From a virus, in the IMG/VR virus record IMGVR_UViG_3300044701_002789, positions 62,001 to 126,000 of that record: a stretch of 64,000 nucleotides of DNA. One strand, 5' to 3'. Shown one piece after another: positions 81 to 383 of this stretch; position 1 is the first letter of the stretch; every line of letters begins with the position of its first letter. A model generated the notes under the pieces. That model did not search any database and was not told the DNA's origin. It saw only the letters and a list, made by a program, of their open reading frames with translations. Position numbers and translations under genes: made by a program.

Positions 81-103
81 AAAAGACAACTTAATGTTGT
101 CAA

Positions 104-224
104 TAGGAACGCTGGGGATTGAACCCAGAACCTCCCACTTATTCGGTATAGAGGGTACTGCCCCCCCATTAACAATCTTTTGATACCGTAAGGTGGGTGC
201 TCTAACCACTTGAGCTACGTTCCC
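104..224 (-). tRNA. tRNA-Val (TAC), anticodon loop interrupted by 47 nt
   Basis: The minus strand gives a standard acceptor stem (GGGAACG with CGTTCCT), a D arm (GCTC/GAGC), an anticodon stem (CCCAC with GTGGG) and a T arm (CTGGG-TTCAATC-CCCAG). The gene is 121 nt, about 46 nt too long. The extra bases, 141-187, lie in the anticodon loop directly after TAC. Removing them leaves the loop CTTACAA, the usual tRNA-Val loop. The insert has complementary ends (CGGTAT, starting in the anticodon, with ATACCG) and an inner GC-rich hairpin. It is far too short for a normal group I intron. The gene may be a pseudogene or may carry an unusual intron. Confidence 0.72.
141..187 (-). other. 47-nt insertion in the tRNA-Val anticodon loop
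   Basis: The segment sits between positions equivalent to tRNA nucleotides 36 and 37. Its ends pair (GGTAT/ATACC), and an inner stem of about 5 bp forms from a run of seven G and CCCTC. What is seen is an intron-like insertion. Whether it is spliced cannot be told from sequence. Confidence 0.6.
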
Positions 225-233
225 AATCAGACA

Positions 234-262
234 ATCGTATGGTATTTATACCAGATTGTCAA
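234..262 (-). promoter_or_regulatory. sigma70-like promoter of tRNA-Val
   Basis: The minus strand reads TTGACA (262-257), a 17-bp spacer, then TACGAT (239-234). Transcription would start about 3 nt before the mature tRNA 5' end. The site lies inside an inverted repeat GACAATC/GATTGTC (230-236 and 254-260). The spacer also contains TATAAATA (250-243), a T4-type late box. Confidence 0.6.
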
Positions 263-345
263 TGGGAGCAGGGGGACTTGAACCCCCACGGGCACTGCCC
301 AACGGATTTTAAGTCCGGTGCGTCTACCGATTCCGCCACGCTCCC
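263..345 (-). tRNA. tRNA-Leu (anticodon TAA)
   Basis: This is an 83-nt minus-strand cloverleaf with the long variable arm expected of class II tRNAs. The acceptor is GGGAGCG with TGCTCCC, the discriminator is A, and the anticodon loop is CTTAAAA, giving TAA. The T arm has loop TTCAAGT. Cyanobacterial tRNA-Leu(UAA) genes usually carry a group I intron, and this phage copy has none. It is preceded by its own promoter. Confidence 0.93.
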
Positions 346-354
346 GATGGGACA

Positions 355-383
355 ATCATAAGGCACGAACCTCAGATTGTCAA
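355..383 (-). promoter_or_regulatory. sigma70-like promoter of tRNA-Leu
   Basis: The minus strand reads TTGACA (383-378), a 17-bp spacer, then TATGAT (360-355). The predicted start is about 3 nt before the mature tRNA. It has the same GACAATC/GATTGTC inverted repeat (351-357 and 375-381) as the tRNA-Val promoter. Confidence 0.7.

Follow-up and report, generated by a model that had tools for sequence, protein, structure and literature searches.

The stretch of DNA analysed here (the window; 64,000 nucleotides) covers positions 62001-126000 of G000, a record of 258,362 bases from a large virus of the cyanobacterial type. Near its start, on the minus strand, lies a full-length tRNA gene of 121 nt (224..104), which reaches 53.8 bits with the Rfam tRNA model (RF00005, cmscan; gathering score, 29) and carries a surplus of about 50 nt within its anticodon loop. 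All stems pair, which bears out the proposal of an earlier note that a tRNA gene with intact stems is interrupted here by a 47-nt insert in the anticodon loop. Plain ARAGORN overlooks this gene; the intron mode of the program recovers the tRNA with a 47-nt insert and, when used for a survey, chiefly fused neighbouring tRNAs. Freed of the insert, the tRNA has 74 nt and forms a cloverleaf with all stems, a 7-nt anticodon loop, U33 and a purine at position 37. The coordinates of the gene, its parts and the other features discussed below are given in Table 1.

Table 1. Features of the interrupted tRNA locus and related elements; positions are those of the window unless a record or contig is named
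Feature	Position	Strand	Remarks or basis
Interrupted tRNA-Ile(UAU) gene	104..224	-	121 nt; A73 at 104; cmscan and uninterrupted orthologues
5' exon, GGGAACG..CCCACCTTA	189..224 (to 190 if split between CTT and ATAA)	-	alignment with B23 tRNA-Ile
3' exon, TAAGTGGGAGG..CGTTCCTA	104..141 (from 142 if split between CTT and ATAA)	-	identical to B23
47-nt insert, CGGTATCAAAAGATTGTTAATGGGGGGGCAGTACCCTCTATACCGAA	142..188	-	absent from B23 and L113
Nested acceptor-like stem, 5' strand CGGTATC	182..188	-	6/7 pairs with 150-144
14-nt linker replacing D and anticodon arms	168..181	-	unpaired in fold
T-arm-like hairpin GGGGG-GGCAGTA-CCCTC, directly 5' of acceptor 3' strand	151..167	-	loop shared with unusual tRNA-Pro/Asn/Thr class
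Nested acceptor-like 3' strand TATACCG (150-144) and discriminator-like A (143)	143..150	-	likeness to GGCAGTA class
Promoter-like TTGACA-17-TACGAT, just 5' of tRNA	234..262	-	10/12 consensus bases
Terminator-like hairpin followed by TTTT, just 3' of tRNA	85..101	-	sequence
Adjacent genes for metallophosphoesterase, P-loop kinase and T4-Rnl1-type ligase	G000:195382-197847 (L123)	-	outside window
Second ligase, Rnl2-like ORF	G000:174862-175404		separate from Rnl1 cluster
CAGCAAU inserts in G000	L118 (G000:40001-60000): 15388-15269, 15094-14983, 14920-14802	-	
Other CAGCAAU loci	L009:411-520, L127:597-710, L130, L169, L263, L265, L291, L299, L313, L323, L339		
AGATGAT elements	G000: 61308, 57099, 55443, 55153, 54977; L009:295, 358, 523; many further loci	- (G000)	
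GGCAGTA-class tRNAs	L299:8825-8756 (-), L292:9185 (-), L336:2606 (+), L030:2251 (+), L130:7655 (+), L398:5896 (-), L404 near 291-365 (+)		

An uninterrupted form of the gene is present in Synechococcus phage B23 (L009:816-889), where it is annotated as tRNA-Ile-TAT and has the loop CTTATAA; the exons agree with it at 73 of 74 nt, the single substitution lying in the D-loop. Contig L113 (3646-3719) has exactly the B23 form, also uninterrupted, and several further contigs contain a tRNA-Ile(UAU) without insert that is 86-93% identical. Because the loop of the uninterrupted orthologues is CTTATAA, the gene is a tRNA-Ile(UAU), and the insert corresponds to 188-142 or 189-143, not to 187-141. The earlier note had read a tRNA-Val(TAC) with the loop CTTACAA and an insert at 141-187, directly after the anticodon. 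Both points have to be abandoned: tRNA-Val(UAC) results from another cut of the same loop that has no orthologue behind it, the loop being CTTATAA in B23, L113 and other relatives, and these orthologues place the insert inside the anticodon. The alignment of the same tRNA in related phages, which the note had proposed, did reveal uninterrupted copies in B23 and L113, yet with another isotype and shifted boundaries. When the insert is written as CGGTATC...ACCGAA (188-142), it separates anticodon bases 35 and 36; the split that is equivalent by sequence, ACGGTATC...ACCGA (189-143), separates bases 34 and 35. The genome, for which ARAGORN lists 29 tRNAs and Rfam 32, has an ordinary tRNA-Val(TAC) and, according to ARAGORN, no second tRNA-Ile(UAU). 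The AUA codon accounts for 24.7% of the Ile codons in the longer ORFs.

The interrupted tRNA with its insert is found in three IMG/VR contigs from separate datasets, which are 100% identical wherever they were compared; the 47-nt insert is identical in L002, L003 and L005. Since identical DNA was recovered in three contigs from separate datasets, an assembly error, which the earlier note had kept as an alternative, is very unlikely. These three insert-bearing contigs are one species. As judged from the sequence, the intact exons together with the promoter-like and terminator-like elements favour a working tRNA-Ile gene, and the motif TACGAT also precedes the tRNA-Ile gene of phage B23. It should be noted that all interrupted copies are identical, and that long tolerance of the insert therefore does not follow from the intactness of the exons.

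The insert folds with -14.4 kcal/mol, which is better than shuffled sequences (z -2.06; 4 of 200 as good), into a single coaxial helix in which CGGTAT pairs with ATACCG, followed by a stem of 5-6 bp whose loop is GGCAGTA; on the 5' side, 15 nt bulge out. The complementary ends and the inner hairpin described earlier are hence real, the hairpin being T-arm-like and stacked on the paired ends, and the view of the insert as structured and intron-like holds. The acceptor-like stem (6-7 bp) and the T-arm (5 bp) make up a 12-bp minihelix with a discriminator A. Just 14 nt separate the acceptor 5' strand from the T-arm, the D arm and the anticodon arm being missing, and the insert is therefore a tRNA-like minihelix and not a tRNA. 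The minihelix has no clear partner for a D-loop GG and no CCA, and its T-loop is non-canonical; these traits speak against the excision proposed below.

A BLAST search with the insert as query among the loci collected for this analysis gave a weak match (E 0.089) to a tRNA array in the related contigs L299 and L331. The matched part comprises the T-arm, the acceptor 3' strand and the discriminator of an atypical tRNA-Pro(UGG) whose T-loop is GGCAGTA and which itself scores 35.5 bits as an Rfam tRNA. A scan of IMG/VR and a structure scan established that tRNAs with this loop form a real class of full-length phage tRNAs for Pro, Asn and Thr, whose acceptor, anticodon and T stems differ among the members; one is also present in Microcystis phage Mwe-JY26. 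Their D-loops mostly have no GG pair, and the L299 and L331 copies are unlisted by ARAGORN. The insert has the trait of this class, a 5-bp T-stem with the loop GGCAGUA that is followed by an acceptor 3' strand and a discriminator. Anchored at the discriminator, its 3' side matches the class at 22 of 25 nt, which was reached by none of 300,000 shuffles (best shuffle, 19), and the geometry of acceptor plus T-arm at the insert ends arose in 300 of 1,000,000 shuffles, none of which combined it with the GGCAGTA loop; both sets of shuffles, structural and match, were devised after the tRNA likeness had been noticed. Beyond 14-nt matches, the genome was found to have no second copy of the insert; a search of IMG/VR for tRNAs interrupted in the loop after CTTA returned the same species and false matches only, and a scan of 3.8 Mb of tRNA-rich phage DNA, where the architecture occurs once, gave no nested tRNA in other anticodon loops. 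Taken together, an interrupted tRNA-Ile(UAU) with a tRNA-like insert is well supported.

What becomes of such a gene is a matter of interpretation, and the main rival of splicing by RNase P, RNase Z and the phage Rnl1 ligase (see below) is that the tRNA is dead, a fragment of a neighbouring unusual tRNA gene having been copied into the anticodon loop of tRNA-Ile by illegitimate recombination, with inactivation of the gene. We regard this as a serious minority possibility. The insert resembles a fragment of the tRNA-Pro in the syntenic array of the related contigs L299 and L331, and as every copy comes from one species, the insert may be young; the identity of the copies within one species, being no sign of long persistence, also counts against excision. 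However, exons, promoter and terminator are intact, the insert ends pair exactly at the junction, a loop of 7 nt is restored once the insert is removed, a second tRNA-Ile(UAU) is missing from the phage, and at least three other interrupted tRNAs are kept in the same genome.

The insert could also be a self-splicing element, either a degenerate group I intron, as the earlier note had considered, or a new mini-ribozyme. It is structured and its ends are paired, and group I introns do occur in the anticodon loops of cyanobacterial tRNAs. Nevertheless, 47 nt and two helices are too small for a group I core, the terminal G is missing in either split, and the Infernal/Rfam search proposed for this purpose gave no group I match at E values up to 10 (500 bases searched), the structure being tRNA-like. 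Nor did Rfam families other than tRNA give a credible match at the locus. We therefore consider this reading very improbable, and a group I remnant was rejected.

The other interrupted genes of the record are three or four tRNAs or tRNA-array elements that carry inserts of a different kind, named here after the motif CAGCAAU (32-62 bits for three of them, 22.9 bits for a doubtful fourth). This family comprises 72 covariance-model matches (62 distinct) in 92 loci. Its inserts are about 38-47 nt long, are mostly located in the anticodon stem between positions 29 and 30, and have a hairpin AUCU(U/A)G..AGAU and a nearly invariant core ACAGCAAU; they occur in uncultured phage contigs and in the cultured Synechococcus phage B23 and Aeromonas phage Ahp1_CNU-2021, where the tRNAs bearing them are annotated as tRNA-OTHER (the labels tRNA-Undet or Pseudo are also used in cultured phages). 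An insert in a Klebsiella phage resembles them by eye, with no model match. The family is missing from Rfam, and a scan of a genome collection for its motif gave no match. RNAalifold found no structure in a first MAFFT alignment, in which the 3' arm was split, and a manually assigned hairpin was therefore refitted by means of the model. This hairpin covaries: the proportion of paired cells is 85.5%, compared with 71.5% in shuffles, and double changes number 33, compared with 12.7. None of 500 shuffles scored as high, and slid controls lay far lower, although these counts are somewhat favourable because the alignment was fitted to the hairpin and its rows are related. A split between positions 29 and 30 restores perfect anticodon stems in 20 of about 50 tested tRNAs, above any other split; the remaining ones need other splits or have decayed.

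That the insert of the window is a diverged member of this family is improbable in the extreme. The two occur in the same genome and share, by eye, the short stretch CGGU-AUC..GAU; however, the covariance model (R1) gives the insert at most 2.8 bits with filters off, compared with 32-62 bits in true members, the insertion lies in the loop and not between positions 29 and 30, and the core motif is missing. Membership was ruled out on the basis of this score.

Several further elements were observed in the tRNA arrays. Intergenic elements of the form AGATGAT-TCAGCAATT-hairpin-AAAA (A-rich)-ATCATCT-AG lie before and between tRNAs, and a few of them contain a T-arm. Their stem positions that were left free by the search pattern covary (GAT/ATC, GGT/ACC, AGT/ACT), and from their sequence they look like circular permutations of the CAGCAAU insert. 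An oddly shaped tRNA-like sequence on the minus strand of L118 (about 15241-15158; G000:55241-55158) has the T-arm ATAAG-TTCGACT-CTTAT and a hairpin TTATCT..AGATAA followed by GTCAGCATC. The minus strand of L093 has, from 4968, a further tRNA-Ile(UAU), interrupted by about 55 nt, apparently between positions 28 and 29; this insert is unlike both the GGCAGTA-type and the CAGCAAU inserts.

The record also encodes, outside the window, a cluster of RNA-repair genes. Its T4-Rnl1-type ligase (403 aa) matches PF09511 with an E value of 4.5e-35 and has a T4_Rnl1_C domain, and the kinase beside it resembles T4 Pnk (PDB 1ltq, E 1.2e-6). The sole PDB match of the metallophosphoesterase is 4j6o (E 5.7e-4), which we take to be the phosphatase domain of bacterial Pnkp. 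An RtcB gene was found neither in the whole genome nor in 18 records; the statement of the earlier note that no archaeal-type splicing enzyme is visible stands to this extent, for RtcB. The fold predicted at the splice sites has UUA/UAA pairs plus bulges and not the 3-4-3 motif of the bulge-helix-bulge (BHB) of archaeal and eukaryal tRNA introns. Two observations speak against a part of Rnl1 in the splicing proposed below: the ligase is widespread among T4-like phages (1621 records), and an Rnl1-type match is lacking in some intron-bearing phages (Klebsiella phi1_175008, Lak). The Rnl1 proteins of the window phage and B23 are 56% identical, although the exons of their tRNAs share 73 of 74 nt.

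Having ligase, kinase and phosphatase genes side by side could point to a protein-dependent intron, in which some endonuclease of the phage or host leaves cyclic-phosphate and 5'-OH ends that are healed and sealed by the phage kinase, phosphatase and Rnl1. T4 mends breaks in the anticodon loop likewise, by means of Pnkp and Rnl1, which rejoin them in vivo (PMC3400036). This reading names no endonuclease, however, and leaves the tRNA resemblance of the insert unexplained, and the repair genes serve against anticodon nucleases too. We consider it unlikely.

We find it quite possible, if short of an even chance, that the tRNA-Ile(UAU) contains an insert in the form of a shrunken tRNA that is excised by RNase P and RNase Z, after which the tRNA is sealed by the phage Rnl1. 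RNase P and RNase Z produce 3'-OH and 5'-phosphate ends, which are those joined by T4-type RNA ligase 1. Host RNase P and RNase Z would be expected to cut a nested minihelix of this type in the transcript, so that the 5' half would end in a 3'-OH and the 3' half would begin with a 5'-phosphate; the T4-Rnl1-type ligase could then join the halves into a normal 74-nt tRNA-Ile(UAU) that would read AUA. If the ends had other chemistries, they might be healed by the adjacent kinase and phosphatase. It should be noted that the canonical cuts by RNase P and RNase Z would produce an 8-nt loop, one base in excess, which counts against the mechanism. If RNase Z cut after A143 and RNase P cut between U and A, one base early, the joined halves would give exactly CUU+AUAA, the B23 loop. 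It has been shown that acceptor/T-arm hairpins are substrates of RNase P, and that an altered T-loop shifts the cut to between N-2 and N-1 (PMC11143913), and also that RNase P and RNase Z release mascRNA and menRNA, which are reduced tRNA-like structures, from longer RNAs (PMC11693755). In our analysis, the combination of RNase P, RNase Z and phage Rnl1 is the most economical mechanism, although its operation as described is tentative and, on balance, doubtful.

Slightly more doubtful still is whether this amounts to a tRNA splicing route not described before, in which a nested tRNA-like intron would be excised by RNase P and RNase Z, the universal enzymes of tRNA end trimming, and the tRNA sealed by a viral T4-type ligase. 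No publication was found on the CAGCAAU family or on splicing by RNase P, RNase Z and Rnl1 in a search whose scope did not extend to most subscription journals and preprints. If true, a phage-infected bacterium could splice tRNAs without a splicing endonuclease, and the RNA-repair genes that are usually taken as defence against nucleases may have a role in tRNA maturation. The locus also illustrates how an intron might be born from a tRNA fragment, and it offers a cheap and concrete in vitro test system consisting of RNase P, RNase Z and Rnl1. The CAGCAAU family, with at least 72 phage tRNA inserts, some of them in cultured phages, raises the question of intron removal on a larger scale.

The group I introns of cyanobacterial tRNAs are located in the anticodon loop, in tRNA-Leu(UAA) between the first two anticodon bases. 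The insert of the window is alike in its anticodon-loop position and differs in having 47 nt, no core and no terminal G. The Pnkp/Rnl1 repair system of T4 mends nuclease damage, and splicing of a gene-encoded insert is not known for it; it shares with the proposed route the same ligase family with a C-terminal tRNA domain and a join in the anticodon loop. The mascRNA and menRNA (RF01684; PMC11693755) likewise consist of an acceptor and T-arm with a reduced remainder, and RNase P and RNase Z excise them from a longer RNA. In contrast to the insert, they are human nuclear RNAs located at the end of a long RNA and not within a tRNA, their release involves no ligation, and their elbow is canonical and includes D-loop guanosines. 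Among published systems, the nearest precedent is provided by the tRNA introns of the Lak megaphages, short introns in phage tRNAs that were called enigmatic, one of which, in a tRNA-Thr(TGT), is reported as a possible tRNA gene itself (Devoto et al. 2019, PMC6784885). Since that report, the removal of phage tRNA introns in bacteria without known tRNA splicing machinery has posed a question. In the Prevotella phage Lak-A1 (L405, L406), two tRNAs of 101 and 104 nt contain extra sequence; these long tRNAs have no sequence likeness to the insert of the window, and the Lak introns were rejected as the same family. The Lak cases concern other phages and other isotypes; in the locus described here, the insertion site is defined by uninterrupted orthologues, and a repair gene cluster and the class of the source tRNA can be named.
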